This document shows positions 1,884 to 20,259 of a stretch of 64,000 nt of DNA, piece after piece. Position 1 is the first letter of the stretch, and each line of letters starts with the position of its first letter. Under the pieces are notes generated by a model. The model was not told the DNA's origin. It was given only the letters and a program-made list of their open reading frames with translations, and did not search any database. Origin of the DNA: Rhizobium sp. SG_E_25_P2. Its GTDB lineage: Bacteria > Pseudomonadota > Alphaproteobacteria > Rhizobiales > Rhizobiaceae. Location: NCBI RefSeq assembly GCF_029892285.1, contig NZ_JARXVM010000014.1, positions 1-64,000 on the forward strand, written 5' to 3'. Position numbers and translations under genes: made by a program.

Positions 1884-1973
1884 GGAGAGGTGGCCGAGTG
1901 GTCGAAGGCGCTCCCCTGCTAAGGGAGTATACCCGGAAGGGTATCGTGGGTTCGAATCCCATCTTCTCCGCCA
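1884..1973 (+). tRNA. tRNA-Ser (anticodon GCU)
   Basis: The 90-nt sequence folds into a class II tRNA: a 7-bp acceptor stem (GGAGAGG with CTTCTCC, one G-T), a D-arm, a 5-bp anticodon stem CTCCC/GGGAG with loop CTGCTAA (anticodon GCT at 1918-1920), a long variable arm, T-loop TTCGAAT, discriminator G and encoded CCA. It reads serine AGU/AGC codons. The gene is intact although an element is integrated at its 3' end, because the element carries a copy of that end. Confidence 0.96.
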
Positions 1974-1975
1974 TT
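1957..1975 (+). repeat. attL core (19-bp direct repeat, copy 1)
   Basis: TCCCATCTTCTCCGCCATT spans the T-arm and acceptor 3' end of tRNA-Ser plus two bases beyond CCA. An identical copy lies at 20241-20259. A tRNA 3' end is the typical target of phage-type tyrosine integrases. Confidence 0.93.
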
Positions 1976-2026
1976 GCCTTCGCAAAGCCCTGACATCCTC
2001 GCAACACCTTGCACTTCTCGGCTTCC

Positions 2027-2062
2027 TGCTACAAACCTTGCTACAAAATCTGCTACAAAACG
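2027..2062 (+). repeat. Three tandem 12-bp repeats, probable integrase arm-type sites
   Basis: TGCTACAAA occurs at 2027, 2039 and 2051, an exact 12-bp period, between attL and the integrase start. The same sequence (TGCTACAAAA) recurs at 20171 near attR, about 60 bp inside the other end. Short repeats at both ends of an integrated element are characteristic of integrase arm-binding sites. The repeats lie upstream of the chosen int start, so they may also act in autoregulation. Confidence 0.6.
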
Positions 2063-2074
2063 GATCAGCAAGGC

Positions 2075-3706
2075 ATGAAGAAGCTCGGCAAAAACATCCA
2101 TTTCTATCGTGGTCAGTGGCGCGCCCGTATCGTGGTGCCAGAAGAACTGCGCGCCATCATCGGCAAGACTCAGCTTGAAGAGCCTCTCGGCGCCGATCCG
2201 AAGATCGCTGAAAAGCGCTCACATGCCGTTCTCGCCGCCTTTCATGACAAACTCGACTTAGCCCGCGCTCACCTTGAGGCATCCCGGCCCACGGTCGCAA
2301 GCGCAGCAAAGGCCACGTTTGCCGCCGAACTCGAATTTGATCTCATGGAACGCGCCGCCGGGCCGCGCAAGACGCTTCGCAATCAAGACCGCATCTATGG
2401 CGACAAGCTCCGGTTAGTCGCGGCTGGCATCATCACAGGCGAAGAAGCTGAAGCCCTCATCGGCTACGCAGCCGACGACCTCATCGCGCGCGGCTTGGCG
2501 GACGCCTCGACGCCGACGAAGCGCGCCAAACTTCTCAAGGTGCTGGCAAGCGTCCGCCTCGACGCCTTGGCCGCCTCGCAGAGCCGCGACAAGGGCGAAG
2601 TCTATCCGCCCGACGCCAGAACCCCGGAGCTACTGCAGCCCGATCCGGAGCCGTTGCCGCCGATCGCGCAACAGCCGGCGAAGAAGCAAGACGGACTCAC
2701 CTTGGCGCAATTGCTCACAAAGTTCCACGGCGAGCGGCAGGGTGGATCGGACAAGACGAAGAAAGAGCATGAAGTCGCGATTCGCATGCTCTCGGGTTTT
2801 GTCGGCAAAGATCGCAGCATTCGGCAGATCACGCGCGCCGACATTCTGGCATATAAAGACGCTCTCAAGCTGACCCCGGCGAACAGTCAGCAGCGCTTCC
2901 CCGGCATGACCATCGTTCAGGCGGCAAAGGCGAACGCCAAGCGTTCGGAGCCTTACCCGGTCTTGAACCCGGCGACCATCAACGGGAAATGGCTCATGCA
3001 CCTGAACAACGTGTTCAATTGGGCCGTCAAGAATGACCTCATGAGCGACAACCCGGCCAAAGGAATCAAGATCGACACCGGCAAGGGCTTCAAGGAGCCG
3101 ACGCGCGTCCCGTTCTCGAACGACGACCTGAAGGCCATTTTTACGAACCCGTTCTTCAAGGAAGCCAAGACCTTCGAAGATCGGCATTGGGCCATCTTGC
3201 TGGCACTCTATACCGGCGCGCGCTCATCAAGCGAGATTCGGCGCGTCAAGCTCGCCGACATCTACGAGGAACAAGGGATTCTCGTCATCGATCTTATTGA
3301 GGCGTCCAAGAATGTTCAGTCGAAACGCGTCGTGCCTGTTCACAAAGACCTCATCGACCTGGGATTCGTCGAGCACGTCGAAAAGCTGCGCAAAGATGGC
3401 AAGACGAAGCTGTTTCCGTCATGGGAGCCGGAGGGCAAAATCAATCGTTGGTTTCTTCGAACCTACAAGCAGGAATGCGGCATCAATGATTCTCGCAAGG
3501 TTTTCCATTCCTTCCGGCACTCATTGAAGACCGCCCTCGCCCGCTACGGCGTCAACCGCGACGTGTCCGACCTGATCACCGGCCACAAAGATCAGTCAGT
3601 CGGCGGTATCTATATCAGCCAACAAGCGCTCACGATGGTTCAGGCTATGAGCGATGGAATCGACCGTGTCGACTTCGGCGTGAAGGGCTACCTCGACCGA
3701 AAATGA
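2075..3706 (+). CDS. Phage-type tyrosine site-specific integrase
   Basis: A 543-residue recombinase that would integrate and excise the element at tRNA-Ser. The N-terminus (KKLGKNIHFYRGQWRARIVVPEELR) is the DUF6538-type arm-binding start seen in proteobacterial phage integrases. A SAM-like core-binding domain lies near residues 215-340 and the catalytic domain after about residue 370: first Arg in LALYTGARSSSEIRR, the HSFRHS box, GHKD, and catalytic Tyr in the region GGIYIS. The start at 2075 matches this domain. An in-frame ATG at 2009 would add a repetitive CYKxCYK stretch encoded by the arm-type repeats and is probably not used. It is adjacent to attL, as expected. Confidence 0.92.
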   Translation: MKKLGKNIHFYRGQWRARIVVPEELRAIIGKTQLEEPLGADPKIAEKRSHAVLAAFHDKLDLARAHLEASRPTVASAAKATFAAELEFDLMERAAGPRKTLRNQDRIYGDKLRLVAAGIITGEEAEALIGYAADDLIARGLADASTPTKRAKLLKVLASVRLDALAASQSRDKGEVYPPDARTPELLQPDPEPLPPIAQQPAKKQDGLTLAQLLTKFHGERQGGSDKTKKEHEVAIRMLSGFVGKDRSIRQITRADILAYKDALKLTPANSQQRFPGMTIVQAAKANAKRSEPYPVLNPATINGKWLMHLNNVFNWAVKNDLMSDNPAKGIKIDTGKGFKEPTRVPFSNDDLKAIFTNPFFKEAKTFEDRHWAILLALYTGARSSSEIRRVKLADIYEEQGILVIDLIEASKNVQSKRVVPVHKDLIDLGFVEHVEKLRKDGKTKLFPSWEPEGKINRWFLRTYKQECGINDSRKVFHSFRHSLKTALARYGVNRDVSDLITGHKDQSVGGIYISQQALTMVQAMSDGIDRVDFGVKGYLDRK

Positions 3707-3736
3707 AATATTCATTCCATATGGAATATTTATTTC
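3705..3736. promoter_or_regulatory. Palindrome between integrase and portal genes
   Basis: ATTCCATATGGAAT is a perfect 14-bp palindrome at 3714-3727, flanked by a second matching arm pair GAAATA (3705-3710) and TATTTC (3731-3736). It begins at the integrase stop codon. It could be an operator controlling the head operon or a weak terminator hairpin; there is no T-run. Function is inferred only from symmetry and position. Confidence 0.4.
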
Positions 3737-3807
3737 AAATAAGGGATTGACCGCCCCGAATCACCCATGGGACAATGTTGCCAAGTTGATAAACAGGCTT
3801 GGCAAAT

Positions 3808-5028
3808 ATGGCGTCTTCACTTCTCAATATCGGAAAACTCTTCGGTCGAAACGCCGAAGTGAAAAAGGCCGTCATCCTGACGGACCCCGAAGCATTCGAT
3901 ATTTTCAACGTCATCCCGACCGTCTCTAATGTTCGCGTCACCGTCGCGAGCGCCATGAAGGTTCCAGCCGTTGCTCACGCGGTCAAGTTGATCGCTGGAA
4001 AGATCGGCGATCTTCCTGCGAAACTCTATAAGACAGGCACGAAAGAGACCGAACGCCAGCACCCGGCCTTCAAGCTCATTCACGGCGAGGCGAACGGCTG
4101 GACAAGCGCCGCACAGCTTCGCGTCGATCTCACAATCGACGCCCTGCTTCATGGCAACGGTTACGCCGTGGTCAACCGCGCCAGCGACGGCCGGCCGCTC
4201 GAACTGCTTCGCGTCGACCCGGCCAAGGTTCAATTCAAACAGGAAGACGACGGCACACCTTTCTACATCGTGTCGGAAGAGCGCGGCCAAGTCCGTTTCG
4301 AGTATCCGGACATTCTGCATATTCAGCCGATCGGCGGCGTCTCGCCGATCAAGCTTCACCGTGAAGCGATCGCCCTGGCTATCTCAGCCGAGAAGCACCT
4401 CGCCACCTACTACGCCAACGGCGGCCGGCCGTCCGTCGTGGTCATGACCGACAAATTCATGACACCGGAAGGCAAGCGCAACTTCATGAGCGCATGGCAC
4501 GAACAGCACTCCGGCGATAACGCGAACGGCGTCGCCATCCTCGACGAGAAGATGACGGCGCAACAGTTGGCGAACACATTCGCCGATGCGCAGTTCGCCG
4601 AGAACCGCCTTGAACAGATTCGCGAAGTTGCCCGCGCCTTCGGCATCCCGCCGACCATGCTCTTCGAACTCACGCGCGGCACGTGGTCGAACACCGAAGA
4701 AATGTCGCGCCAGTTCTACACCATGACCCTTGAGCCGTGGCTTACGGCATGGGCTTGGGCCTATGCGCGTTGCCTTCTCACGCCCGAAGAGCGCGACCGC
4801 CTCTATATCGAATTCGTCACCGACGACCTTCTCACCGCCGACTTCGCCAAGAAGGCGACTGCGCTCGGACAGTATCGCAGCATGGGCGCGCTCACCGGCA
4901 ACGAAGTTCGCAGCATGCTGAACATGCCGGCGCACCCTGAAGGCGACAGCCTTGCAAACCCTCATATCACCACGACGCCGGCCGCACCCTCGCCGACCGA
5001 TCCCGAACAACCGGAGGAATCCGCATGA
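3808..5028 (+). CDS. HK97-family phage portal protein
   Basis: 406 residues. It forms the dodecameric DNA-entry ring of the capsid vertex. Family traits include a conserved N-terminal block (VPAVAHAVKLIAGKIGDLPAKLY), the segment DALLHGNGYAVVNR, and FGIPPTMLFE...TWSNTEEMSRQFYTMTLEPWL near residues 285-320. The C-terminal tail is Pro-rich. ATG at 3808 with upstream CAGG is chosen; TTG at 3799 would add three residues. It opens the structural operon directly after the integrase, an unusual position since TerS/TerL normally precede it. The stop overlaps the next start (ATGA). Confidence 0.93.
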   Translation: MASSLLNIGKLFGRNAEVKKAVILTDPEAFDIFNVIPTVSNVRVTVASAMKVPAVAHAVKLIAGKIGDLPAKLYKTGTKETERQHPAFKLIHGEANGWTSAAQLRVDLTIDALLHGNGYAVVNRASDGRPLELLRVDPAKVQFKQEDDGTPFYIVSEERGQVRFEYPDILHIQPIGGVSPIKLHREAIALAISAEKHLATYYANGGRPSVVVMTDKFMTPEGKRNFMSAWHEQHSGDNANGVAILDEKMTAQQLANTFADAQFAENRLEQIREVARAFGIPPTMLFELTRGTWSNTEEMSRQFYTMTLEPWLTAWAWAYARCLLTPEERDRLYIEFVTDDLLTADFAKKATALGQYRSMGALTGNEVRSMLNMPAHPEGDSLANPHITTTPAAPSPTDPEQPEESA

Positions 5029-5171
5029 CCAATCCTAAAATTTCCAAGCCCATGCCGATCACGATCGCAGGCGATAATGACGCAGTGAACGCATTGATTG
5101 CGCAGGCGCTCATGAAGTCGGCTCTTCAAAGCTACATCGACGGCGGCTTCATCGGAGTGCGCACGAAGTGA
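5025..5171 (+). CDS. 48-residue protein of unknown function in the head operon
   Basis: A short gene opening with an ideal GGAGGAAT ribosome site and overlapping the portal stop by 4 nt (ATGA). It ends overlapping the next gene (GTGA). The product starts MTNPKISKPMPITIAG and is mostly a single amphipathic helix followed by SYIDGGFIGVRTK. Translational coupling on both sides makes it a real gene. GTAs and related phages often carry a small gene after portal, but I cannot assign a function. Confidence 0.7.
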   Translation: MTNPKISKPMPITIAGDNDAVNALIAQALMKSALQSYIDGGFIGVRTK

Positions 5172-5563
5172 AGCACACCGCCTTTTTCGGTGACGCGACC
5201 TATACCTTCGCGCTCAGCGACACCACGACCACCGAACTTGAGCGACTGACCGGCGTCGGCGTCGGCGCGCTCTATCTCCGCATGGTCAATTCGCAGTTCC
5301 ACGTTTCCGACATGACGCAGATCATCCGGCTTGGATTGATCGGCGGCGGCGTCTCGCCTGAGAAGGCGCACACCCTTGTCGAGACCTATGTGAAGGATCG
5401 ACCATTCGCCGAGATCGTCCCGCTTGCGCTCGATATCCTCGACGCCCGCTGGAACGGCTCGCCGGAACGTGTCGAGCCGGCCGTCTGGATCAATGAGGAC
5501 GATTTGCGTCACGCCGCAACTACCGGCGACCTTGCCGCAGCGCTCAATGAGGCAGCGGCATGA
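5168..5563 (+). CDS. Tail assembly chaperone-like protein, GTA-gp10 / Phage_TAC_11 type
   Basis: 131 residues, GTG start at 5168 overlapping the preceding stop. The pattern FFGDATYTFALS...LERLTGVGVGALYLRM...QIIRLGLIGGG...AHTLVETYV..RPFAEIVPLALDIL matches what I recall of the family that includes gp10 of the Rhodobacter gene transfer agent, considered a tail-assembly chaperone. The odd feature is its place, between portal and capsid, with no tail tube gene nearby. A second chaperone-like gene follows the capsid. Family call is good; role in this element is inferred. Confidence 0.78.
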   Translation: MKHTAFFGDATYTFALSDTTTTELERLTGVGVGALYLRMVNSQFHVSDMTQIIRLGLIGGGVSPEKAHTLVETYVKDRPFAEIVPLALDILDARWNGSPERVEPAVWINEDDLRHAATTGDLAAALNEAAA

Positions 5564-7119
5564 GCGACACCGAAAACCTCGAAATCAAAGCCGAGATCTC
5601 TATCGACGACGCCGGCACCGTGACCGGCCTTGCTTGGCCGTTTGGCGCGCCTGACAGCGTCGGCGACGTGATCGAAAAGGGAGCCTTCGGCTATGCCAAC
5701 ACCATGCCCATGCTCATGGAACATGAGCAAGGCAAGGGAGCAATCGGCGTTTGGGAATCCTTCGCCGAGACCGACAAGGGGCTTGAAGTCAAAGGCCGCT
5801 TGTTTCTGGAAGGCGTCAGCCCCGCCCGCGATGCACACCGCGCCCTGAAGCTCGGCACCATCACCGGCTTGTCGATCGGCTTCCGACACAACGGCTTCGA
5901 AGAGCGTCCCGAAGGTGGCCGTGTCTTCAAGTCAATCACCGTCAACGAAATCAGCCTGTGCCGCCGTCCGGTTCATCCCGGCGCGCGCGTCACCGTCGTT
6001 AAATCTCTAATTGAGGAACCCAAAATGCACACCGAAGAAATGAAGAACGAACCGGAAACCAAAAGCGATCCGGTGATCAGCGTCGAAGAATTCAAGGCCG
6101 TGAAGGCCCGCCTCGACGCCGTCGAAGCCAAGTCGAACCGCCTTCGCGGCGCGAACAACAATCAGCCGGCCGGCGACAACGAGAACGGCGAGATCAAGAA
6201 GGCCTTCGAAGGCTTCCTTCGCCATGGCGTTGAACGTATCTCGCCCGAACTGCAGAAGGCCCTGACCGTGTCCGTCGATGCAAACGGCGGCTATCTCGCA
6301 CCGGAAGCCTTCGGCGACGAGATCCTGAAGAAGATCGTCGAATTCTCGCCGATCCGCCAGTATGCCAAGGTCACGACGATTTCGGCTTCCGAAGTCAAGT
6401 ATCCGCGCAAGCTCACCGGCTCGGCGGCGACCTGGGTCTCGGAAATCGGCGCACGCACCGAATCCGGCATGACCTTCGAACAGGCGACGTTCACGCCTTA
6501 CGAAATGTCCACCTTCGTCCCGGTCTCGCGCCAGCTTCTCGAAGATAACGCCTATGGCCTTGAGGCCGAACTTGTCGCCGACTTCGGCGAGAGCTTCGCC
6601 AAGGCCGAAGGCGCTGCATTCACGAATGGCGATGGCGTCGGCAAGCCGAAGGGCCTTCTCACCGCATCCGGCATCACCGAAGTGAAGACCGGCAACGCCG
6701 CCACCCTCGGCACCGACCCGGCCGCGACCATCATCGGCATGTTCCATTCGGTCCCGTCTGTCATCGCACAGAACGGCGTTTGGATCATGAACCGCAAGAC
6801 GCTCGGCGCGCTTCGCACCCTGAAGGACGGCACCGGCCGCTTCATCATGCTCGATCCGATCACGACCGGCGCACCGGCAACCTTGCTCGGCCGTCCGATC
6901 GTCGAAGCGATCGACATGCCCGACGTTGCCGCCAACGCGTTCCCGATCCTGTTCGGCGACCTCTCCGGTTATCGCATCGTCGATCGCATCGGCCTTTCGA
7001 TCCTTCGCGACCCTTACACCCTCTCCGGCACCGGACAGGTGAAGTTCACGGCTTACAAGCGCACAGGTGGCGACGTGTCTCACGCCGACCGCTTCATCAA
7101 GCTGAAGGTCGCCGCCTAA
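5560..7119 (+). CDS. Fused HK97-type prohead protease and major capsid protein
   Basis: 519 residues joining two normally separate proteins. Residues 1-150 are a U35-type prohead protease: FGAPDSVGDVIEKGAF, the His in LMEHEQ and the catalytic-type Ser in TGLSIGF. Residues 156-519 are an HK97-fold capsid: a charged delta-like segment, then SVDANGGYLAPEAFGDEI, LEDNAYGLEAELVADFGESFAKAEGAAFTNGDG and KPKGLL. The junction still looks like an old gene boundary: TTGAGGAA lies 7-9 nt before an in-frame ATG at 6025, so free capsid may also be made. Start overlaps the previous gene by 4 nt. Capsid shell and its maturation are therefore encoded here. Confidence 0.93.
   Translation: MSDTENLEIKAEISIDDAGTVTGLAWPFGAPDSVGDVIEKGAFGYANTMPMLMEHEQGKGAIGVWESFAETDKGLEVKGRLFLEGVSPARDAHRALKLGTITGLSIGFRHNGFEERPEGGRVFKSITVNEISLCRRPVHPGARVTVVKSLIEEPKMHTEEMKNEPETKSDPVISVEEFKAVKARLDAVEAKSNRLRGANNNQPAGDNENGEIKKAFEGFLRHGVERISPELQKALTVSVDANGGYLAPEAFGDEILKKIVEFSPIRQYAKVTTISASEVKYPRKLTGSAATWVSEIGARTESGMTFEQATFTPYEMSTFVPVSRQLLEDNAYGLEAELVADFGESFAKAEGAAFTNGDGVGKPKGLLTASGITEVKTGNAATLGTDPAATIIGMFHSVPSVIAQNGVWIMNRKTLGALRTLKDGTGRFIMLDPITTGAPATLLGRPIVEAIDMPDVAANAFPILFGDLSGYRIVDRIGLSILRDPYTLSGTGQVKFTAYKRTGGDVSHADRFIKLKVAA
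6011..6027 (+). promoter_or_regulatory. Internal ribosome site and start for the capsid part of the fusion
   Basis: TTGAGGAA (6011-6018) precedes ATG at 6025 inside the fused gene, exactly at the protease/capsid junction (residue 156). Usage would give a 364-residue capsid protein without the protease. Seen: motif and spacing. Inferred: real initiation. Confidence 0.5.
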
Positions 7120-7682
7120 TGTCTTCCCGGCTCGCATTCAACCCGATTCAGATCTCGGCCGGTGACATCACCGTCCGTCTGCGTCCGTCTTTGCGGGCCG
7201 GCTTGCTCATCGCGCAGCAATACAGCCTCGACGAACTCCGGCAAAATCTCGACGAATGTCACCTTGGCGCAATCTCGCATCTCATCGCGATTGGATGCGA
7301 TGACACCACCCGAACCTGTGAATTGATCGCGGCCAAGACCGAACGAAATGGCCTGTGCCTGATTCAGGATTTTACGCCGGCCATCGTTGAATTCGTGAAG
7401 CATTCGATCGGCTGGACAGACGACGCGCCCGAACAGGCCGCGCCGTCATCCAAGCCTTTCGTGCTCACAGATCACCTCACCGAACTCTTTGAGTTTGCGG
7501 CTGGCGTCCTGCAATGGTCGCCGGCCGATACCTGGGCCGCAACGCCCGCCGAGATCCGTCATGCTTGGAAAGGCTATGATAAAATGCGTGGCAGCGCCGA
7601 TGATCCGCGCAACCTTCCTTCCGAAGCAGAGATCAAAGAAGGCCTTGCGACTCTCCGCGACCTCTCAGGCGAGGCCGCATAA
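7119..7682 (+). CDS. Second tail chaperone-like protein (TAC_11-like N-terminus, TAC_6-like C-terminus)
   Basis: 187 residues, start overlapping the capsid stop by one base. The N-terminal half (ISAGDITVRLRPSLRAGLLIAQQYSLDELRQNL) resembles the GTA-gp10 chaperone fold. The C-terminal part (FEFAAGVLQWSPADTWAATPAEIRHAWKGYDKMRG) matches the short gp10.1/Phage_TAC_6 pattern, in which a Trp and a TP-E-I-R motif are conserved. In GTA-like tails these two proteins are separate and follow the tail tube gene; here they appear fused and the tube gene is absent. Recognition is by pattern and moderately certain. Confidence 0.6.
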   Translation: MSSRLAFNPIQISAGDITVRLRPSLRAGLLIAQQYSLDELRQNLDECHLGAISHLIAIGCDDTTRTCELIAAKTERNGLCLIQDFTPAIVEFVKHSIGWTDDAPEQAAPSSKPFVLTDHLTELFEFAAGVLQWSPADTWAATPAEIRHAWKGYDKMRGSADDPRNLPSEAEIKEGLATLRDLSGEAA

Positions 7683-8032
7683 TGCGCCCGCCTCGCCTGT
7701 GCCAGTGCGGCAACATCGTCCCGGCCGGCATCCGTTGCGCCTGTCAGCAAAAGCAGGACCGCGAACGCAAAGCTCGCCATGACGCTCGCCGTCCTTCAGC
7801 CCGTCAACGCGGCTACACAAGCGAATGGGACAAAGCCCGGCGTGAATACCTCGCCGCGCATCCCCATTGCCGCCTGTGCGCAGCTATGGGCCGTATCACA
7901 CCGGCCAACGTTGTCGATCATATCAAGCCGCATCGCGGTGACATGCGCCTGTTCTGGACAAGAGCCAACTGGCAGCCCCTTTGCACGCCTTGCCATAGCA
8001 GCGTGAAGCAGAAGCAGGAGCGCAGCCGATGA
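7682..8032 (+). CDS. HNH endonuclease
   Basis: 116 residues. Cys pairs (CQCG...CAC, CRLC...CTPC) form zinc sites around the HNH core VVDHIKPHRGD...NWQPLCTPCHSSVKQKQ. In HK97-like cos phages a small HNH protein works with the large terminase in cutting genome ends, so a packaging role is likely. Start overlaps the previous stop (TAATG) and its end overlaps the next gene by 4 nt. Confidence 0.88.
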   Translation: MRPPRLCQCGNIVPAGIRCACQQKQDRERKARHDARRPSARQRGYTSEWDKARREYLAAHPHCRLCAAMGRITPANVVDHIKPHRGDMRLFWTRANWQPLCTPCHSSVKQKQERSR

Positions 8033-8880
8033 GCAAGGCCGAACGCGCTCGCCAGATCGACGCCGAAGAATTCCGCCAAGACAGCAAGCAAGCCCTTGCC
8101 CGCGCACTCGCCTATTCCAGACGGAAGCAGGAAGAACGCCGTCGCCAGTTCCTGACCTTTGCCTTCGGCGAAGAAGGCAACGCCATGGCGCTCGACAAGC
8201 ACCACGCACCGACCAACACCAACCGTTCACCCGTCACGCTCTTCACCTTCGGCAAGCAATCCCTCAGCGCGCCACAATGGGCGCACCGGCTCGGCATCGA
8301 ACCCGACACCCTCTTCCGCCATGCGCGCGAACATGGATCGATGGAAGCCGCAATCGCCTTCTGTCTGAAGCACCGTCGCAAGCGCACCGGCAAGCCTGCC
8401 AAGATCCACGAATGCAATGGCCTGAAGCTCACGCGGCATCAATGGGCCAAACGCCTCGGCATCGCTTTGGGCACCTTCGACACGCGCGTGAAGAAATACG
8501 GCCTTCAGTCCGCCATCGCCATGGGTAGCAAAATCACACCCGGTCAGCACACGCCCTACAAGGCCAGTCCGCTCACCGCCGACGACCTGACGCTTCCCCG
8601 GCGCGAATGGGCAAAGCGCCTCGGCATTGCTTACACGTCATTCTGTGGTCGCGTCACGCGCCTTGGCATCGAAGCCGCAATCGCCATGGGCGGACCGAAC
8701 CCGCGCGGCGGACATCGTCGACCGTCCAATGACAACGGACAGGCCAATGAAGGCGCACAGGCCAACAACGACGCACCGGGGGTGGTTGACGACTTTTCCG
8801 AGTGCTTAGGGACCGGCGGCGGGAGTCACGCGCAAGAGACGCCCAAAATAAGTTTTTCAGGAAAGACGACCCAAGAATGA
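8029..8880 (+). CDS. Protein with three helix-turn-helix-like repeats, unknown function
   Basis: 283 residues. A basic N-terminal helix (residues 1-45) is followed by three related modules at about 79-112, 134-166 and 189-221, each of the form L-x-R-x-x-WAKRLGI-x-x-x-(T/S)-(L/F)-x-x-R-V-...-G-(L/I)-x-x-AIAMG, spaced about 55 residues apart. The pattern resembles a sigma/recombinase-type helix-turn-helix and suggests binding to three successive DNA sites. The tail is Gly/Asn-rich, then acidic, ending after GTGGGS. Lying between HNH nuclease and connector genes, it could be a packaging-site recognition factor or a regulator. I do not recognise the family. Confidence 0.7.
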   Translation: MSKAERARQIDAEEFRQDSKQALARALAYSRRKQEERRRQFLTFAFGEEGNAMALDKHHAPTNTNRSPVTLFTFGKQSLSAPQWAHRLGIEPDTLFRHAREHGSMEAAIAFCLKHRRKRTGKPAKIHECNGLKLTRHQWAKRLGIALGTFDTRVKKYGLQSAIAMGSKITPGQHTPYKASPLTADDLTLPRREWAKRLGIAYTSFCGRVTRLGIEAAIAMGGPNPRGGHRRPSNDNGQANEGAQANNDAPGVVDDFSECLGTGGGSHAQETPKISFSGKTTQE

Positions 8881-9218
8881 CCAGCATCATCAGCCTTGCG
8901 CTCTTCAAAGCGCACATTGGCAGCGACGAATTGATCGATCCCGGCGCGCTCGGCAACCTCGCCAGCGGCACCGACGAGTTGCTTCAGCACTACATCGAAG
9001 CCGCCGAAGCCCGCGCCGCTGCAATGCTCGGCAAGCCCCTGTCCGACTTCACGCCGGTTCCGATCGACATCAAACAGGCCATCTTGCAGCTTGCCGCGCA
9101 CTTCTACGCCAACCGCGAAGCCGTCCTTGTCGGCACAAGCGGCAGCGAAATCCCCTATGGCGTCGCCGATTTGCTTCGTCCGTATCGTGTTGAGGTGACT
9201 GGCCTTGTCCGATCGTAA
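8877..9218 (+). CDS. Head-tail connector, HK97 gp6-like
   Basis: 113 residues. It has the usual pattern of gp6-type adaptors that dock under the portal: an N-terminal LALFKAHIG segment, a helix LLQHYIEAAEARAAAMLGKPL, and IDIKQAILQLAAHFYANREA with a C-terminal YGVADLLRPYRV. Start overlaps the preceding gene by 4 nt (ATGA). Confidence 0.85.
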   Translation: MTSIISLALFKAHIGSDELIDPGALGNLASGTDELLQHYIEAAEARAAAMLGKPLSDFTPVPIDIKQAILQLAAHFYANREAVLVGTSGSEIPYGVADLLRPYRVEVTGLVRS

Positions 9219-9636
9219 GTCACTCACCGAACAATCCCGCGACCTTGAGCAGCGCTTGAACGCTATCCCGGCCGCGATCTTGGAAGCCCTTCGCCCGGCG
9301 CTCATGCGCAGCGGCGAGGAAGTCGCGCGGAACATGCGCGCCTTGGTTCCCGAAGACACCGGCAACCTCAAAGAGTCGATCACCGTCACCGGCCCCGGCG
9401 AGACGACGCCGCCCTATGCGGCCAACGGCGGCAAGCGCACGGCCGGCCCTAATCAGGTGCTCGTCACCGTCGGCGATTCAGACGCGCGGTATGGTCACAT
9501 GCTCGAATTCGGGACCGTGAAGATGGAAGCACAGCCGTTCGTTCGTCCTAGCTGGCGCTTGGCGCGAACCCGCGTCGATCGCCGCCTCAAGGCCGCGATC
9601 ACGTCCGCAATCAAGAAGGCGGCGAAGAATGCTTGA
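9205..9636 (+). CDS. HK97 gp10-type head-tail joining / tail completion protein
   Basis: 143 residues. TTG at 9205 is the only sensible start and has GAGGTG upstream. The pattern RNMRALVPEDTGNLKESI...YGHMLEFGT...AQPFVRPSW is diagnostic for the HK97-gp10 family, which sits between connector and tail terminator. The start overlaps the gp6-like gene by 14 nt. Confidence 0.88.
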   Translation: MSDRKSLTEQSRDLEQRLNAIPAAILEALRPALMRSGEEVARNMRALVPEDTGNLKESITVTGPGETTPPYAANGGKRTAGPNQVLVTVGDSDARYGHMLEFGTVKMEAQPFVRPSWRLARTRVDRRLKAAITSAIKKAAKNA

Positions 9637-10042
9637 GCCGACCCTTGCACTTCAGACAGCCATTCGCGCCGCCCTGATCGCCTCGCCGGCCGTGACAGCG
9701 CTTGTCCCGGCCGATCATATCCGCTCTGGCAGCACCCGGCCCGACAAGACGCCGACCATCATCATGAGCGGCGGCCAAACCATCTTGCACGGCCATGACT
9801 ACGCGGCACAGCGCGCCGCGTGGGTGTATCTCGACTTGCATGTTTGGACGCTCAACGAAGGCGAACAGCGCGCCAAGGAAATCGCCTTCGCGGTGACACA
9901 GGCGCTCGACATGCCCATGACCATCCAAGGCGGCTTGTGCGATCATTTCGAAGTCACCGGCTGCGTTTATCCGCGCGACCCCGACCCGGCATATGGTCAC
10001 GGCGTCCTGTCCGTCGAAGCCCTCATTCGGTGGGTGATTTGA
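9629..10042 (+). CDS. DUF3168-type tail terminator protein
   Basis: 137 residues. DUF3168 proteins (lambda gpU-like, gp8 of gene transfer agents) cap the tail tube end that docks on the head. Seen here: LQTAIRAALIASPAVTALV at the N-terminus, HVWTLNEGEQRAKEIAFAVTQAL in the centre, and a strand-rich C-terminus. It is kept although no tube gene is found, which suggests that a tail, possibly foreign, is attached. Confidence 0.8.
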   Translation: MLEPTLALQTAIRAALIASPAVTALVPADHIRSGSTRPDKTPTIIMSGGQTILHGHDYAAQRAAWVYLDLHVWTLNEGEQRAKEIAFAVTQALDMPMTIQGGLCDHFEVTGCVYPRDPDPAYGHGVLSVEALIRWVI

Positions 10043-10356
10043 TGCAGAGCGGCAAACGAAATCGCGTGATCTTCATCGAGCGCGAAGTCTCGACCATCAA
10101 CGCGGCCGGCTATTCCGAAAGCACCTGGGCGACAGTCGGCACCGTTCGCGCCGAAGTCGCGCGCCAGTCGATCGACGAGGCGGCGACCGGCTTTGGCGAG
10201 GCTGGAACCGATCGCGTCACCTTCCGCACGAAATATTTCACCGGCCTGACCACGGCCGATCGCATCCGTTTCTTGGGCCGCGCCTTCAATGTGAAGAGCA
10301 TCCTCGATCTCGGCGTTCGCGACGGTCTCGAAATCACAGGCGAGGCCAGCGAATGA
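10042..10356 (+). CDS. Phage head closure / head-tail adaptor protein (Phage_H_T_join)
   Basis: 104 residues, TGATG overlap with the preceding gene. The sequence IFIEREVSTINAAGYSESTWATVGTVRAEV...TFRTKYFTGLTTADRIRFLGRAFNVKSILD follows the SPP1 gp16 / lambda FII-like family that plugs the connector after packaging. Confidence 0.87.
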   Translation: MQSGKRNRVIFIEREVSTINAAGYSESTWATVGTVRAEVARQSIDEAATGFGEAGTDRVTFRTKYFTGLTTADRIRFLGRAFNVKSILDLGVRDGLEITGEASE

Positions 10357-10742
10357 CGCATCTTCGCGGCATCAAGCCGACCTTGTCGCCGGATAGTGAT
10401 GCACTCACCAAAGCGCCGCTTGCGCCGAAGCGCATGAACGAGCACGCGCGCGCCGAGTGGAAGCGCATCATGCCGGACGTGATCGCCCGCCGCATCATTA
10501 CGAAAAGCAACCTCGCCGGCATCGAGAATTATTGCATGGCGATCGGCGCTTCGAACCAGATCGCCGAACTTATGGCGACCATGCCCATTCCCGACCTGAA
10601 GCTCGCCGGCCTGCAAATCCGCTACATGCAGACAGCGCGCCAGCTTGCGGCCGAATACGGTCTTACGCCGACTTCGCGCGCCCGTATCGGCAGCAACGCG
10701 CCGGCCGACGATGACGACGACAACCCGCTTTCGGTGACGTGA
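10353..10742 (+). CDS. Terminase small subunit, P27 family
   Basis: 129 residues. Opens with a short basic region, then LAPKRMNEHARAEWKRIMPDVIARRIITKSNLAGIENYCMAIG, the typical P27-family helical core that recognises the packaging site. It ends in an acidic DDDDDNP tail. It is coupled to TerL by overlap, but both sit after the head genes instead of before the portal. Confidence 0.9.
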   Translation: MTHLRGIKPTLSPDSDALTKAPLAPKRMNEHARAEWKRIMPDVIARRIITKSNLAGIENYCMAIGASNQIAELMATMPIPDLKLAGLQIRYMQTARQLAAEYGLTPTSRARIGSNAPADDDDDNPLSVT

Positions 10743-12370: not shown

Positions 12371-15070
12371 GTGGCGAATGAAGCAGCACTTCCCGGCCTT
12401 GTGGTCGACATCGAAGCCCGTATCGACAAGCTCGAAAAGGGCATTGCCAAAGCGAACGCAATCCAGAAACGCGGCGCGACCGACATGGAAAACCGCGCCC
12501 GGCAATCGGCGCGAAAGATCGAAGACACCTATTCGCGGTCATATGACCGCATCGGCAAGACCATCGAGAACGGCTTCGCAGCCTTCAGCCGAAGCAGCGC
12601 GGCGGTTGCTGGCGCTGGCGCGTTGTTGATCGCCCTTAATCAGATCACCGATTCCGTCGCCGAAGTCGATCGCGAGGCCCGCAAGGCTGGCGTCTCGACG
12701 AAGGTTTGGCAGCAATGGAGCCATGTCGCCAAGGCGACCGGCGCCAGCGTTGACGGCGTGACTGACGCCCTGAAGGAACTGAACATTCGCGGCGATGAAT
12801 TCGCCCGAAACGGCAAAGGCGGCGGCGCGGAATGGTTCACTCGCTTCGGTTATTCCGCTGAAGAGGTTGGCCGCAAGCTTCGCGAGCCGAACGCCTTCCT
12901 CGACGAGTTGATCGGCAAGATCAAGGAGCTTGATCAGGCGGGCCAGACGCGCGCCCTCGACGAACTGTTCGGCGGAACCGGCGCGGAAGAGCTTGCGAAG
13001 ACGCTCGGCTTGTCCGTCGAGCAAATCCAGAAGCTCCGCAGTGAGGCGGCGACCTTCAGCAAGGAACAGATCGAAGCCGCCAAGCGCATCAACGCCGAAT
13101 GGGAAACCATGTGGTCGAACTTTACCGTTCGGGCCAAGGCCGCAGCCATCGACGGCGCGAACGTCGCCGCCTCGATTGCACAGGCCATCCGCGACGCAGG
13201 CGCAAGCGTCGGCGCTGATAAATGGCTCGACGGCACCCGACTTGCACCCGGCGCGCTGGACAATGCCCGCCGCGACTATGATCAGCGCCAAGAGCTTTCC
13301 GAACTCAATGACCTTCTGAAGCGCCGCGCCGAACTCATGGCAGAGCTTGACGGCATGTCGCCGGTTGCTCGCTCGCTCGGCTTTGACGAGAGCGTCAAGG
13401 CCAACCTTCGCGACGTGGATGCGCGCATCCGCGAAGTGCAGCAGGCGCTTCAGGACACCCGCCCGGCGCTCGACGGCGTCAAGGATTCCAGCGAACAGCT
13501 TTCGCCGGCCTTCGACCGGAACGCCACGGCGGCGAGCAACTTTAAAGCCGCCCTGGCTGAACTGAAGGCCATGGTTCCCGGCCTGAAGGCGGACCTCGAC
13601 GCGCTGGCACAGTCCGACGCCCTGAACACCGCATACGTGAACGCCGCGCGCAACGCCCGCTCTATGGGCGAACTCATGCAGGCGACGGACCTCGCCAACC
13701 GCGCCCGATCGGTCGCGACCTATGGTCAGCACGACAATATTCTCGACTTGATCGGCGCGGCCGAAGGCAACGACAGAGGGCGCGGCTATAACGAGACGCT
13801 CGGCTATGGCGCATACACAGGCGGCGCGCAAAACCTCACCGGCATGACCCTTGATCAGGTGCGAGAGCTTCAGCGGCAAATGCTGGCGCATCCTGCCAAC
13901 ACGTTCAATTCGTCCGCTGTGGGCCGCTACCAGATCACCGGCCGCACCCTCGACAGCTTGCGCGACGAACTTGGTCTCTCCGGCGATCGGCTCTTCGATC
14001 AGGCGACACAGGACGAGCTTGCGCGCGCCCTCTTGCGTCGGCGCGGCAATGACCCGACGGCGCTTCGCAATGAGTGGGAAGGTTTGCGCCGCGTGGATGA
14101 TTCCACCATCCGCAACGCCTACGCCGGCACACCGACCGGACAACAGCAGCTTGACCCGTCGCCAGCACAGGAACGCCAGACCGAACTTTTGCAGCGCCAG
14201 ACCGACGCCCGCCGCAACCTCAATCAGGCGATAGAAGAGGGCTTGAGCCGCGCCCGCTTCGAACAGTCCCTCGCCGGCATGTCGGAGAACTCCAAGCGGA
14301 CAGAGCTTGAGCTTTACGACCGCCTTGCGCAGTTGAAGCGCGACGGCGTCACGTTGTCCGATCAGGAAATCGCCAAACTTCGCGAGAAGATCGCCATGAC
14401 GGGCCAGCTCAACGCCCAAAATCAACAGGTCGCGACATCGACCGAAGGCTTGCGGAGCGCACAGACGTATTTCGCCGAGAGCTTCACGTCGTCGCTTTCC
14501 GGCTTGCTGACCGGCACACAGACATTGAACGGCGCGCTGCAAAACCTTCTCAGCAACCTTGTGGACGCCACGCTTCAGGCCGCATTGCTTGGCAAGGGTC
14601 CGCTCGGCGGATTGTTCGGCGGCGGCGCTGGCATCTTCGGCGCGCTGTTCGGCTTCAGCGGCGGCGGCTATACCGGCGACGGCGGAAAGTATCAGCCGGC
14701 CGGCGTCGTGCATCGCGGCGAATTCGTCATGAGCGCCCAAGCTGTCCGCCGCATCGGCGTCGGCAACCTTGAGGCCGCACACCGCTCGGCGCTCAAGGGC
14801 TTCGCATCGGGCGGCTATGTCGGCAGCAATCCGCCTTATCAGATGGACAGGTTCACCGGCGGCTCAAGTTCATCCGGCAACGGCGGCGCGGCGCAGAACG
14901 TCAGCATCAATGCGCCCATCACTGTCAACGCCAACGGCGGAACACCGGAACAGAACACCGACCTCGCCAAGCGTGTTCGGAAAGAGATGGAAGGCACCAT
15001 GCGCGGCGTCGTGGTCGATGAGCTTCGGAAACAGATGCGCGTCGGCAACCTCTTGGGGAACAGGCGATAA
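12371..15070 (+). CDS. Tape-measure protein with internal muramidase-like domain
   Basis: 899 residues, GTG start with GAGGA 6 nt upstream. The N-terminal 250 residues are helical and coiled (DIEARIDKLEKGIAKANAI). A lysozyme-like insert spans about residues 455-575: catalytic-type Glu in IGAAEGNDRG, then LGYGAYTGG and SAVGRYQITGRTL. A hydrophobic Gly-rich stretch (LGGLFGGGAGIFGALFGFSGGG) and AGVVHRGEFVMSAQAVRRIG near 780-800 are hallmarks of tape measures. If tail length follows tape length, about 1.5 angstrom per residue would give a tail of some 130 nm. No tube, distal tail or baseplate gene follows; the structural operon stops here. Confidence 0.85.
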   Translation: MANEAALPGLVVDIEARIDKLEKGIAKANAIQKRGATDMENRARQSARKIEDTYSRSYDRIGKTIENGFAAFSRSSAAVAGAGALLIALNQITDSVAEVDREARKAGVSTKVWQQWSHVAKATGASVDGVTDALKELNIRGDEFARNGKGGGAEWFTRFGYSAEEVGRKLREPNAFLDELIGKIKELDQAGQTRALDELFGGTGAEELAKTLGLSVEQIQKLRSEAATFSKEQIEAAKRINAEWETMWSNFTVRAKAAAIDGANVAASIAQAIRDAGASVGADKWLDGTRLAPGALDNARRDYDQRQELSELNDLLKRRAELMAELDGMSPVARSLGFDESVKANLRDVDARIREVQQALQDTRPALDGVKDSSEQLSPAFDRNATAASNFKAALAELKAMVPGLKADLDALAQSDALNTAYVNAARNARSMGELMQATDLANRARSVATYGQHDNILDLIGAAEGNDRGRGYNETLGYGAYTGGAQNLTGMTLDQVRELQRQMLAHPANTFNSSAVGRYQITGRTLDSLRDELGLSGDRLFDQATQDELARALLRRRGNDPTALRNEWEGLRRVDDSTIRNAYAGTPTGQQQLDPSPAQERQTELLQRQTDARRNLNQAIEEGLSRARFEQSLAGMSENSKRTELELYDRLAQLKRDGVTLSDQEIAKLREKIAMTGQLNAQNQQVATSTEGLRSAQTYFAESFTSSLSGLLTGTQTLNGALQNLLSNLVDATLQAALLGKGPLGGLFGGGAGIFGALFGFSGGGYTGDGGKYQPAGVVHRGEFVMSAQAVRRIGVGNLEAAHRSALKGFASGGYVGSNPPYQMDRFTGGSSSSGNGGAAQNVSINAPITVNANGGTPEQNTDLAKRVRKEMEGTMRGVVVDELRKQMRVGNLLGNRR

Positions 15071-15728: not shown

Positions 15729-15732
15729 GACA

Positions 15733-15800
15733 ATCCCCCGCCTGATAGACTCACGAGACTGAAACACTGTCTCTTGCATGTGTTCTATCAGGCGGGGGAT
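15733..15800. other. Long hairpin: 17-bp perfect inverted repeat with nested stem
   Basis: Arms at 15733-15749 and 15784-15800 match over 17 bp without error. The 34-nt loop contains a second stem GAGAC/GTCTC (15755-15759 with 15769-15773). This is too long and too GC-rich for chance. It could be the end of a non-coding RNA, a replication or transfer signal, or a strong bidirectional terminator. Confidence 0.6.
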
Positions 15801-16773: not shown

Positions 16774-16944
16774 ATGACTGCGATCTACATGAACGACGAA
16801 GACCATTCCCGGTATGTCGATTCGATCCTCGACAGCTTCCTCGGCGGAATCCTGAAAGACCGTATCCGGGACGACGTTGTCTTGGCGCTCGGCGAGCACC
16901 TTGGCATTTGGCCGGAGAGCAGCCGTTCGGACGATGAGGAGTGA
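16774..16944 (+). CDS. 56-residue acidic protein, unknown
   Basis: A small gene with AAAGGCGA upstream of ATG 16774. The product (start MTAIYMNDEDHSRYVDSILD) is acidic, predicted helical, and ends SSRSDDEE. It opens a plus-strand run of small genes in the right half of the element. Not recognised. Confidence 0.5.
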   Translation: MTAIYMNDEDHSRYVDSILDSFLGGILKDRIRDDVVLALGEHLGIWPESSRSDDEE

Positions 16945-17069: not shown

Positions 17070-17579
17070 ATGAAGACTTCTGCGGACTATCAGCGTGAGT
17101 ATCGGCAAAGGAAAAAGAAGGAGGACAGCCGGAAGGCCGACGCCGCAAACCCTGTGTTCCGCCGCCCGTTTAACGAGTATTATGATTGGCAGGACACCAC
17201 TGGCGTGGATATCCCATTTGACGTGATGGGAGTTGACTGGCTGACATTTGATGATGACAGCGGACCCAAGCCTAAGACTGATCAGATCGACCCGGAAGAA
17301 TTTGCGGAAGACTACGCGGCTTTCAAGGGCTCTTTGGGTCGCGCTGAATTGACAATCGGCTGCCTCTTGGACGCTGCCGTTGCATTGGCAGAAATTGTCA
17401 ACGCCTACAAAACGGAAGAGATCGCAGCACGCATCGCTGAAATCGAAGCGGCCGATCTCACCAACCCGGCCATCAAGAAACAAGCGCTGGCGGATATCGC
17501 CAAGCTGACCAGATACCGCGACGAACTTTCGAAGTCAGTCCGGTGGACCCTTCCACAATGGAAGGTCAAGGGCGAATAG
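17070..17579 (+). CDS. 169-residue protein of unknown function
   Basis: ATG 17070 with AAGGA 9 nt upstream. The N-terminus (SADYQREYRQRKKKEDSRKA) is basic and helical, of a kind seen in small phage DNA-binding proteins. The middle is acidic (FDDDSGPKPKTDQIDPEEFAEDY), and the rest is helical, ending in SKSVRWTLPQWKVKGE. Typical accessory phage gene by size, composition and context; function not recognised. Confidence 0.65.
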   Translation: MKTSADYQREYRQRKKKEDSRKADAANPVFRRPFNEYYDWQDTTGVDIPFDVMGVDWLTFDDDSGPKPKTDQIDPEEFAEDYAAFKGSLGRAELTIGCLLDAAVALAEIVNAYKTEEIAARIAEIEAADLTNPAIKKQALADIAKLTRYRDELSKSVRWTLPQWKVKGE

Positions 17580-17592
17580 CCCTTTCAAGAGC

Positions 17593-17625: not shown

Positions 17626-17687
17626 ATAGAATGCCGACTACCAATCAACATTCAACGCCCCGAGGGGCGCAGCACAAGGACAATATC

Positions 17688-18214: not shown

Positions 18215-18215
18215 C

Positions 18216-18464: not shown

Positions 18465-18477
18465 TCGATCAAGTTTG

Positions 18478-18693
18478 ATGACATACGCTCTGCACAGTCC
18501 AAGCTCGGCGGCGGGCCGCGCCGGTTATCTTGTTGCCGCCCGCCAGCATTGGGAGCACTTCGAATATGTGACGACCTGGGCGAACGCGCGTCACTTCAAT
18601 AGCATTGATGAGGCCGCGTTCGCCGCGACAAGTTCCCGACACCATGTCGTTCCGATCAGTGAGCGGGATTGGCGCGACCTTCATTCGATCTGA
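18478..18693 (+). CDS. 71-residue protein of unknown function
   Basis: Last gene of the small-gene run, ATG 18478 (TTG at 18475 also possible). The product has YLVAARQHWEHFEYVTTWANARHFNSIDEAAFAATSSRHHVVPISERDW. No strong ribosome site is visible, so translation may depend on coupling with the gene 14 bp upstream. Confidence 0.45.
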   Translation: MTYALHSPSSAAGRAGYLVAARQHWEHFEYVTTWANARHFNSIDEAAFAATSSRHHVVPISERDWRDLHSI

Positions 18694-18699
18694 CAACCA

Positions 18700-18771: not shown

Positions 18772-19947
18772 TCAGACACGTCCTCTTAGCTTGGCGTAGA
18801 TCGAAGTGATTCGAAGTAGAGACGTGTAGCAGGCTTTATTTTTACCCATCGTCTGAGGGTTGCTGTTCGCAATCTCTTGATAGACTTGCGCCGCCGCTTC
18901 GATGAGTTCTTTGTCGGTGAAAGATGACGGAACATCGAGCGACCACGTTCCATTCTTGTCCTCGCGCACGAACGCCGAGTGAGCTGCAAGGATAGGAAAT
19001 ATAATGCCATCGGGCACTTGAACTATCGCCCTAGCCTCTCGTTCGATGGACCGCAGACGGGTTCCCTTGAAGCCCTGGTGCCCCTTCCACCGCTCGTAGA
19101 GATTCCATGCGGGGCCGGCCAGATCCAGAAAACAATCCAGCACTTCGGATTGAACCATTTCCTCGACCCGCTGGAACAGCTTCAGGCACTTGGTCTTCTT
19201 GCTGTAGGTAAAGGCTTTGTTAACGCCATCCGCGCCATCGGCAGACGTAACGACGCGCTTCAAAACATCCACGGGCATTAGAGCGAAAGTGACCTGGATC
19301 AGCTTTTCTGTGTCGAGGTATCCTTCCTCGTCGTTCGTAATCAGATCGGTTTCACGTTTGCGCAGCTTGGCGTTCGGGACATGACGGCGGACCGAGGTTT
19401 CCAGCTCGTCCAACTGGCCCTTGCGACCAGCTATCGAGATCGCCCGAACGTCGTTCTGGAAATTTCGGGCAATCGAGATATCTGCGACCAAGTCAGGATC
19501 GTTGGTGACTATGATCTCATAACGGATGCTAGGTTCAAAATCGGGATTGTTGGAATTCTGATCGAAGAAGCGCTGCAATTCGCCCTGAGTCTGCGAACCG
19601 TTTATGATGCTCGCATCGGTAAGCTGCATTCGCTTGTTTTTGTCATCGACTGCGGCATGAGACGCCACAATCACCATGCCACCGTTTAGGATGCTGAACA
19701 GATCGGGCGTGTCTACGAGGGTCTTGCGGATTGCCTGGTGCACAAGCGTTGGCGATCGTTTCTGCTTGCCCTTTGCATCGACAAGATATTCGCGAACGTT
19801 CTCGTTGTCATCCAATTGGAGAACAGATGAACTCGGTGCGTAGCCAGCATAGACCTTACGATCTTCGTGCTCATCTTCGGGAGAACTAATATTACGGCAG
19901 GTATGATACGCGAACGAAATCGTCGCGCCTTTGAGGCTCGTAGCCAT
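18772..19947 (-). CDS. AIPR-family abortive infection phage-resistance protein
   Basis: 391 residues, ATG 19947 with AAGGAAG upstream. The segment LFSILNGGMVIVASHAAVDDKNKRMQLTDASIINGSQTQGEL matches the AIPR signature (NNG...IVNGxQT), the region that defines PF10592. Members are linked to abortive infection in lactococci and to defence islands; their biochemistry is poorly known. Here the gene is solitary, on the opposite strand to all packaging genes, and next to attR, the usual place for cargo in phages and satellites. It probably protects the lysogen against competing phages. Family call is good; activity is inferred. Confidence 0.8.
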   Translation of the reverse strand: MATSLKGATISFAYHTCRNISSPEDEHEDRKVYAGYAPSSSVLQLDDNENVREYLVDAKGKQKRSPTLVHQAIRKTLVDTPDLFSILNGGMVIVASHAAVDDKNKRMQLTDASIINGSQTQGELQRFFDQNSNNPDFEPSIRYEIIVTNDPDLVADISIARNFQNDVRAISIAGRKGQLDELETSVRRHVPNAKLRKRETDLITNDEEGYLDTEKLIQVTFALMPVDVLKRVVTSADGADGVNKAFTYSKKTKCLKLFQRVEEMVQSEVLDCFLDLAGPAWNLYERWKGHQGFKGTRLRSIEREARAIVQVPDGIIFPILAAHSAFVREDKNGTWSLDVPSSFTDKELIEAAAQVYQEIANSNPQTMGKNKACYTSLLRITSIYAKLRGRV

Positions 19948-20152
19948 TTTTTGCTTCCTTTTCCACCGGCCGCAACTTTAAAGACGCATCCACCTGGATG
20001 ATCCATGCGAGCCGATGCGTGGATGCTGCATATACCTTCTCGGCCTGTCAAGGGCCTTCGGCCTTTCTTGAGGCGTTTTCCCCAAATGATGATGGTTGCC
20101 TAAAGCCGGCGGTTTGTCACATTTTTCTAGCGCTATGTCTGACGATGGAGAG

Positions 20153-20161
20153 TTATCCACA
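20153..20161 (+). promoter_or_regulatory. Perfect DnaA-box sequence near attR
   Basis: TTATCCACA matches the strict DnaA consensus and lies 10 bp from the right-hand integrase-type repeat. One box does not make an origin; it may be chance or play a role in element replication or excision. Confidence 0.3.
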
Positions 20162-20170
20162 GACAATCTC

Positions 20171-20200
20171 TGCTACAAAACAGCACACAAATCTGCTATC
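20171..20200 (+). repeat. Right-end integrase arm-type site
   Basis: TGCTACAAAA at 20171-20180 is identical to the left-end repeats at 2039 and 2051; a degenerate TGCTATCAA follows at 20194, two 12-bp turns further on. Position about 60 bp inside attR fits an arm site. Confidence 0.55.
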
Positions 20201-20240
20201 AATTAACTGATTTCATTGGCTATTTTTTGGAACCCCCGTT

Positions 20241-20259
20241 TCCCATCTTCTCCGCCATT
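20241..20259 (+). repeat. attR core (19-bp direct repeat, copy 2)
   Basis: Identical to 1957-1975. It is the right border of the element; chromosomal sequence resumes at 20260. Confidence 0.93.

Follow-up and report, generated by a model that had tools for sequence, protein, structure and literature searches.

The stretch of DNA analysed in this study (the window) comprises 64,000 nucleotides of the 5.56 Mb genome of Rhizobium sp. SG_E_25_P2, positions 1-64000 of contig C14 (NZ_JARXVM010000014.1). It contains an element of about 18 kb at 1957-20259, delimited at both ends by exact 19-bp direct repeats. A tyrosine integrase gene at the left end is followed by an operon of head, packaging and tail assembly genes and by a right arm of small genes and an AIPR-family gene. 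The gene complement suggests that the element probably represents a lineage of capsid-forming satellites distinct from the capsid-forming phage-inducible chromosomal islands (cf-PICIs). Members of this lineage would make their own head, tail terminator, tail assembly chaperones and tape measure, and would depend on a helper phage for lysis, for the tail tip and in most cases for the tube.

An earlier note on this DNA had placed exact 19-bp borders at a tRNA-Ser gene with the integrase at attL. Both repeats were located (Table 1), and the corresponding empty site was found in the same-genus genome G698 (L257), where tRNA-Ser(GCT) at 1263-1352 carries a single copy of 18 of the 19 bp of the repeat. 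The left flank of this site is 91-96% identical to that of the element, and the right flank aligns at 78% identity from 1501, about 150 bp further on. The tRNA gene with one repeat copy, and the right flank following so closely, indicate that the insertion is real and precise. Gene identities were assigned by Pfam and PHROGs searches of the window's genes, and they agree with the set read earlier from the sequence, namely portal, capsid/protease, connectors, terminator, chaperones, tape measure, HNH, TerS and TerL.

Table 1. Features of the integrated element in the window. Bounded elements are relatives delimited by a repeated tRNA 3' end; ORF, open reading frame; GTA, gene transfer agent.
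Feature	Position	Strand	Evidence
tRNA-Ser(GCT), integration target	1884..1973	+	ARAGORN; empty site in G698
attL, 19-bp direct repeat	1957..1975		exact match to 20241-20259; overlaps 3' end of tRNA-Ser(GCT)
Tyrosine integrase	2075..3706 (ORF open from 2009)	+	PF00589 4.4e-11, phrog_1 5.5e-37
Portal	3808..5028	+	PF04860 1.3e-90
GTA-gp10-like tail assembly chaperone (TAC_11), putative	5168..5563	+	PF11836 6e-25; library label 'tail tube'
Prohead protease fused to major capsid protein	5560..7119	+	PF04586, PF05065
Tail assembly chaperone (TAC_6)	7119..7682	+	PF09550 2e-05, barely above its cut-off
HNH endonuclease	7682..8032	+	PF01844 8.6e-07, phrog_2323 3e-33
Helix-turn-helix-like repeat protein, variable slot	8029..8880	+	phrog_3377 1.8e-09; HNH/DNA-binding proteins in this slot in relatives
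gp6-like head-tail connector	8877..9218	+	PF05135 2.4e-11
HK97-gp10-like neck/tail completion protein	9205..9636	+	PF04883 1.5e-09, phrog_5 1.3e-22
gp17-like tail terminator	9629..10042	+	PF11367 9.4e-16, phrog_176 2.2e-06
Head closure protein	10039..10356	+	PF05521 1.4e-14
Terminase small subunit (TerS)	10353..10742	+	PF05119 2.1e-12
Terminase large subunit (TerL)	10739..12361	+	phrog_9 7.3e-132, PF20441, PF03354
Tape measure, 899 aa, lysozyme-like stretch at about residues 450-580	12371..15070	+	phrog_10574 2.7e-76, phrog_430 6.1e-14, lysozyme matches
Perfect 17-bp inverted repeat, loop 34	15733..15800	none	sequence
56-aa protein without assigned function	16774..16944	+	present in 27/31 bounded elements; dN/dS 0.08 and 0.16
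Protein without family match	17070..17579	+	present in 11/31 bounded elements
Four small ORFs	17631-17981, 17981-18214, 18216-18464, 18475-18693	+	no Pfam/PHROGs family at <=0.01
AIPR-family protein	18772..19947	-	PF10592 6.8e-21
attR, 19-bp direct repeat	20241..20259		exact match to 1957-1975

Relatives were retrieved by a tape-measure search and then by portal searches. A second copy is present in the host genome at tRNA-Gln, with a tape measure 77% identical to that of the window; the identity reaches 89% in Rhizobium sp. FKL33 (Rhizobiaceae, Hyphomicrobiales) and 87% in one viral contig. A total of 71 loci were mapped with local profiles built from those same loci, FKL33 being counted twice among them (L001, G549). 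Portal, TAC_11, capsid and TAC_6 occur together in 60 of the 71, and together with TerL and tape measure in 41; many loci without the full set are interrupted by contig ends. Thirty-one elements (FKL33 counted once) are bounded by a repeated tRNA 3' end, and the other 40 loci are not, many because the stretch or contig stops first. The bounded elements range from 15.9 to 19.2 kb and occupy eight kinds of tRNA genes (16 Gln, 4 Ser, 4 Val, 3 Thr, and one each of Leu, Pro, Gly and Met). All twelve core genes are found in a single order in 29 of them, the exceptions being G730, without a TerS call, and G106, a distant variant with seven of the twelve. The tape measure is present in every bounded element, the terminator and each of the two chaperones in 30, and a match to the integrase profile in 28. 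Elements of the same gene set and length, for which the earlier note had proposed to search at tRNA-Ser, are therefore numerous at tRNA sites of related genomes.

The sampled genomes were one per species and incomplete. Portals related at E <=1e-60 were found in 31 of 397 genomes of the order sample and in 57 of 394 of the family sample, where a match at this threshold need not mean a core-family element each time. At 1e-75 they were found in 4 of 367 genomes of the class sample and 3 of 378 of the phylum sample, the host being included in each of these. Every match lies in Alphaproteobacteria, and the phylum sample gave none outside this class at 1e-75. The order sample held 35 portal places, of which 13 were left out (G245, fetched as L186, among them); the 67 places of the family sample were represented by the two of the host and 20 from the best scoring, with 45 left out; and from a 54-locus portal search 24 loci at <=30% identity and the duplicates L048, L049 and L065 were left unmapped. 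None of 50,697 phage records has a portal of at least 60% identity to that of the window, and records of such elements stand as plasmids or viral contigs. Some variants were also noted. In L255 (G095 C30, reverse strand) the tape measure precedes portal, capsid, HNH, connector, head closure and terminase, and in G245 C4 a tape measure match lies directly ahead of the portal. Near 762-772 kb of host contig C1 (L045) lies a short island in which an HK97-type capsid gene and a TAC_11-like gene accompany an integrase adjacent to tRNA-Ser(GGA); it gave no match to the portal or TerL profiles and may be either a remnant or another capsid-bearing element.

Since this copy lacks genes for tail, lysis, replication and repressor, it could be a decaying prophage or a domesticated head module that is no longer mobile. 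We regard this as very improbable, since 29 of the 31 bounded elements, distributed over eight kinds of tRNA, repeat the same set and order, the frames are intact, an empty site exists in G698 and a circular relative is known. The ratio of nonsynonymous to synonymous substitution rates (dN/dS) was below 1 in all 41 gene comparisons giving a value (14 genes against FKL33, 14 against L038 and 13 against the second copy of the host), ranging from 0.08 to 0.65, with 0.23-0.26 for the tape measure, 0.12-0.32 for the portal and the values given in Table 1 for the 56-aa protein. Decay through broken or unconstrained genes or a one-off deletion was rejected on these grounds, and the element does not have the appearance of a remnant. 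The C-terminus of the capsid protein and the terminase diverge far beyond neighbour genes between close relatives (window versus L001 and L038); the FKL33 tape measure is 89% identical to that of the window and its TerL 43%, and the TerL of L038 is 97% identical. Such patterns reflect exchanged segments in some pairs, covering the C-terminal half of the capsid protein and TerS-TerL. Circular relatives were found as well. Paracoccus marcusii unnamed5 is a circular plasmid of 17,494 bp carrying all twelve core genes, with the record start falling inside the tape measure, together with an HUH Rep-like gene and a Rep3 initiator; neither a tube (local profiles) nor an integrase match was found in it. 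The circular pMPOP02 of Methylorubrum populi has the same operon, a tube, a gpM-like gene and a Tn3 element, with no integrase match. A more distant circular record of 16,883 bp, Roseomonas mucosa pTT14-8 (L271), carries portal, protease, capsid, HNH, TerL and an IS21 insertion.

Among the genes of the window element, no match to tube, distal tail or tip, baseplate, lysis, primase or repressor families was obtained in Pfam or PHROGs. Its ORFs of at least 45 aa did not match either of two local tube profiles (PF06199-like and PF08813-like) searched without filters, and the profile check of the small ORFs for tube or repressor folds that had been proposed gave no match in the window. The slot that holds a tube gene in some relatives has no space here, the capsid gene ending and TAC_6 starting both at 7119. 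The absence of tube, baseplate, lysis, replication and repressor genes noted earlier holds for this copy in profile searches. The right arms of 30 bounded elements were also searched against Pfam and PHROGs with 221 ORFs of at least 60 aa, selected longest-first in sets of 113 and 108, one search of the second set covering 25 of its 26 matched families. No tube, hub, fibre, lysis or repressor family was recognised in them, and an AlpA/Stl-type regulator or primase was recognised neither in the window nor in these 221 ORFs; an AlpA-like sequence was seen by eye beside the unbounded locus G427. Two gpM-like minor tail proteins and defence-type cargo were present among the 221. A relative with complete tail and lysis gene sets in the region from tape measure to attR would have marked this copy as a deletion remnant; none occurred among the 30 scanned elements. 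The slot between HNH and connector, represented by 52 ORFs of relatives, held no tube by Pfam and PHROGs. Three of the 52 match phrog_201, labelled Panton-Valentine leukocicin, probably a misnomer in such an operon.

The gap between capsid and TAC_6 is empty in most mapped loci. A small protein lies there in G004, G013, G182, G440, G754 and L052, and the two given to Pfam matched no family. A tube-like protein occupies the gap in seven of the 71 mapped loci and in pMPOP02, including two of the 31 bounded elements. The second tube profile was built from G142b, G326, G427, G637, G730 and pMPOP02, whose own matches are not independent; G076 (2.1e-39) and G064 (2e-10), which were not part of its build, match it. 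When five tube candidates were compared with Pfam, G730 and pMPOP02 scored above the PF08813 cut-off and G427 slightly below, and G142b and G326 had no match. Proteins resembling gpM were found in G332, G175 and pMPOP02, and also in G579 near a second portal, together with one weak PF08813 tube match. The ORFs 3' of the terminase in the tube-bearing G076, G064, G427 and G326, read by eye, showed no obvious tip or fibre gene. The presence of a tube in a minority of relatives shows that the operon goes with a genuine tail. A quick portal tree places most tube-bearing loci on early branches and has a tube-free clade of 33 rows that includes the window; it requires five changes of the label. Long branches and uncovered slots weaken this tree, which does not distinguish gain from loss of the tube, and its tube-less label includes rows whose slot was uncovered or of another kind (L059, L064, L066, L070, G194, G263 and a Roseomonas plasmid). 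The lack of a tube, which the earlier note took as a property of the element, thus appears to mark the clade of the window but not the whole family.

Right-arm genes differ among elements except for Rep, the 56-aa protein and the 17070-type protein. They include GmrSD, AIPR, Fic/Doc, DpnI, BglII, HEPN, DUF4747, trypsin-like and other genes, and the first 113 right-arm ORFs gave single matches to 14 PADLOC models. The AIPR gene of the window is probably defence cargo. Fifteen of the 31 bounded elements, but not the one in the window, encode an HUH-like protein with LHxHG and GWxxYxxK motifs 3' of the tape measure; PF23343 exceeded its cut-off in one of nine such candidates given to Pfam. The reported lack of replication genes is therefore true of this copy and not of its relatives in general. 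Perfect hairpins with stems of 16-31 bp and unrelated sequences lie between the tape measure and the 56-aa gene. Stems of at least 16 bp, a threshold chosen after viewing the list so that no claim is based on the count, follow the tape measure in nine of 16 Rep-less and two of 15 Rep-bearing bounded elements. A hairpin of this kind could possibly be an origin or an operator.

Several observations weigh against a helper-dependent satellite. Both Pfam (PF11836) and PHROGs (phrog_8985) describe the TAC_11 protein as a tail tube protein. The evidence for missing tail genes comes from profiles, and two tube candidates suggested by local homology escaped Pfam; right-arm PHROG matches mostly carry no stated function, and the ORFs were selected longest-first. 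No helper was identified by searches for shared hairpins and tail types, and the host has no match to PF05939 (gpM) or to a PF08813 tube. Furthermore, the tubes of the resident phage and of the host gene transfer agent (GTA) are of the PF06199 type, whereas those of tube-bearing relatives are PF08813-like.

The first of these points would be explained if the element were an autonomous minimal siphophage, with tube, tip and lysis functions in small diverged genes, or with TAC_11 itself as the tube. The two library labels, the lack of a match for most right-arm ORFs and the two tube candidates of relatives that escaped Pfam agree with this, yet right-arm genes vary between elements as essential tail tip genes would not. 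A profile of 28 TAC_11 relatives searched against the PDB matched no chain of the RcGTA virion, the best match being a lysozyme chain at 0.0038; the gp9 of the host's own GTA matches the RcGTA tail tube Rcc01691 at 1.9e-42. Moreover, a PF11836-type homologue adjoins a separate tube gene both in the host GTA (3.6e-05) and in the resident prophage (3.5e-09). We consider the autonomous siphophage unlikely. Because of the missing virion match and the separate tube genes, the TAC_11 protein was kept as a putative chaperone despite its labels; this assignment is the weakest link of the claim that a tube is lacking. PF11836 is named for GTA gp10 and yet described as a tail tube, the RcGTA tube being a different protein, and the labels of PF11836 and phrog_8985 may mislead the annotation of such elements.

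A source for the missing tail parts was sought in the host. A resident siphophage prophage at C2:134-155 kb encodes homologues of the element's portal, TerL, capsid, connector, neck, terminator, TAC_11 and tape measure, and has a tube gene between terminator and TAC_11, which makes plain the kind of virus that supplies such machinery. Tails could instead come from the GTA of the host and not from a phage. Both chaperones fall by Pfam name in GTA-related families (PF09550 is linked to GTA), and a PF06199 tube occurs in 27 of 31 element-bearing genomes, mostly strong and GTA-like and never inside the element interval when compared by eye, in a survey blind to the PF08813-like type. GTA clusters are, however, common in Hyphomicrobiales anyway, the tape measure profile has its match in the resident phage (1.4e-28) with none in the GTA region, and tube-bearing relatives use the other tube type with a gpM-like protein. 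GTA-derived tails are thus quite improbable. Given the difference between PF06199 and PF08813-like tubes, neither the resident prophage nor the GTA stands out clearly as the helper, and the helper may be one that is not resident. PF05939 was matched in one and PF08813 in two of 12 element-bearing genomes searched, neither being the host. The PF05939 match and one PF08813 match are those near the second portal of G579; the other PF08813 match, at G641:C1:99390-99680 (L279) outside the mapped element, may belong to a helper or to a second tube-bearing element. Identification of the helper through a shared hairpin failed: with one mismatch allowed, the window arm occurs in the host at its own two arms and once on C7, and the backwards control gave an equal number of matches. 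The hairpin match in viral contig L261 lies inside a coding gene of an unrelated contig, and apart from its own element the arm of G539 was found only in a viral contig of 17.5 kb that belongs to this family.

It is also conceivable that particles are head-only or short-tailed, the tape measure being ejected to serve as a channel in the absence of a tube, and uptake proceeding without a siphovirus tail. The tape measure in all 31 bounded elements with a tube in only two fits this idea. The terminator and chaperones (30 of 31 each), as well as the tube kept in some relatives, point to a real tail and leave this idea little likelihood. In the satellite interpretation, the element would be excised and then replicated by its own HUH Rep where present, otherwise by an initiator in trans. 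It would make its own procapsid, into which TerS-TerL with HNH would package its own DNA. The tape measure and two chaperones of the satellite would act on the tail tip of a helper siphophage, and tube protein, helper-made in the clade of the window and self-made in a minority, would polymerise to the length of the satellite tape measure. Terminator, neck and connector of the satellite would attach the tail to the head, and the helper would lyse the cell. The tape measure was probably kept for governing tail length and DNA ejection, its length would be imposed on a borrowed tube protein, and the right arm would serve as exchangeable cargo, with the AIPR protein in the window. Taken jointly, a group of undescribed alphaproteobacterial satellites with chimeric tails, in which helper tube and tip join the terminator, chaperones and tape measure of the satellite and the satellite governs length and ejection, some members being circular plasmids, is a tentative picture that we hold with less than even confidence. 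Since members range from tube-encoding to tube-less, the lineage may record a stepwise loss of autonomy. The new type of satellite proposed by the earlier note is supported by a distinct, intact and integrating element that keeps its tape measure and chaperones and has many same-order relatives; the absence of tube and Rep as a family-wide trait is not.

The elements integrate, are far smaller than a phage and, within the limits of profile searches, carry no recognised functions for completing a particle or for lysis, as is general for satellites. No description of such a family was found in a title and abstract search of the literature, the scope of which did not include the primary cf-PICI paper and a large satellite survey. 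If the interpretation is true, the family would separate the tail parts that have to fit the satellite from those open to sharing, would offer a direct test of whether a satellite tape measure sets the length of a helper tube, and would give Hyphomicrobiales a common satellite type with defence cargo.

Among known systems, the siphophages (resident prophage, locus G243) share homologous portal, TerL, capsid, connector, neck, terminator, TAC_11 and tape measure genes. They carry packaging genes first, head genes next and lastly terminator and TAC_11, which are separated by a gap or a tube, whereas in the elements described here the chaperones stand beside portal and capsid and the terminase precedes the tape measure. 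Paracoccus marcusii unnamed5 and pMPOP02, extrachromosomal and annotated as plasmids, have the same operon and are members or close relatives by gene order. GTAs of the RcGTA type share a PF11836-type chaperone and HK97-like head genes; unlike them, the elements have an integrase and att sites and no recognised tube or distal tail gene. Identity as a GTA was rejected, given the integrase and att sites and the absence of a complete tail gene set by Pfam and PHROGs.

The cf-PICIs have a PICI-type regulator (AlpA/Stl) and primase-type replication, and neither an AlpA nor a primase family was recognised in the elements described here, which also keep a tape measure (31/31) and two tail chaperones (30/31 each). 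The descriptions consulted state that cf-PICIs encode capsid and packaging functions and depend only on helper tails (PMC10690885), that they average 14 kb, with Enterobacteriaceae, several Firmicutes groups, Pasteurella and Morganellaceae as their main hosts (PMC10803314), and that their capsids fall into three radiations (PMC11389934). Both groups have their own capsid, protease, portal, connectors, TerS, TerL and HNH (PMC10690885), but the present elements are 15.9-19.2 kb long and come from Alphaproteobacteria, outside that stated host list (PMC10803314). As far as those descriptions go, the family would function in a similar way to the cf-PICIs, but membership in them was rejected because of the tail-building genes and the unrecognised AlpA and primase. 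The Streptomyces satellites MulchRoom and MiniFlayer likewise have capsid and packaging genes and no known primase; as portrayed in the same source they differ in having virulent Streptomyces phages as helpers and direct terminal repeats, with no tape measure named there (PMC10690885). The tail of MulchRoom has the length of that of its helper (PMC10690885), and capsid-forming satellites are described there as needing a helper for the whole tail (PMC10690885), whereas the elements described here would bring their own terminator, chaperones and tape measure to it.

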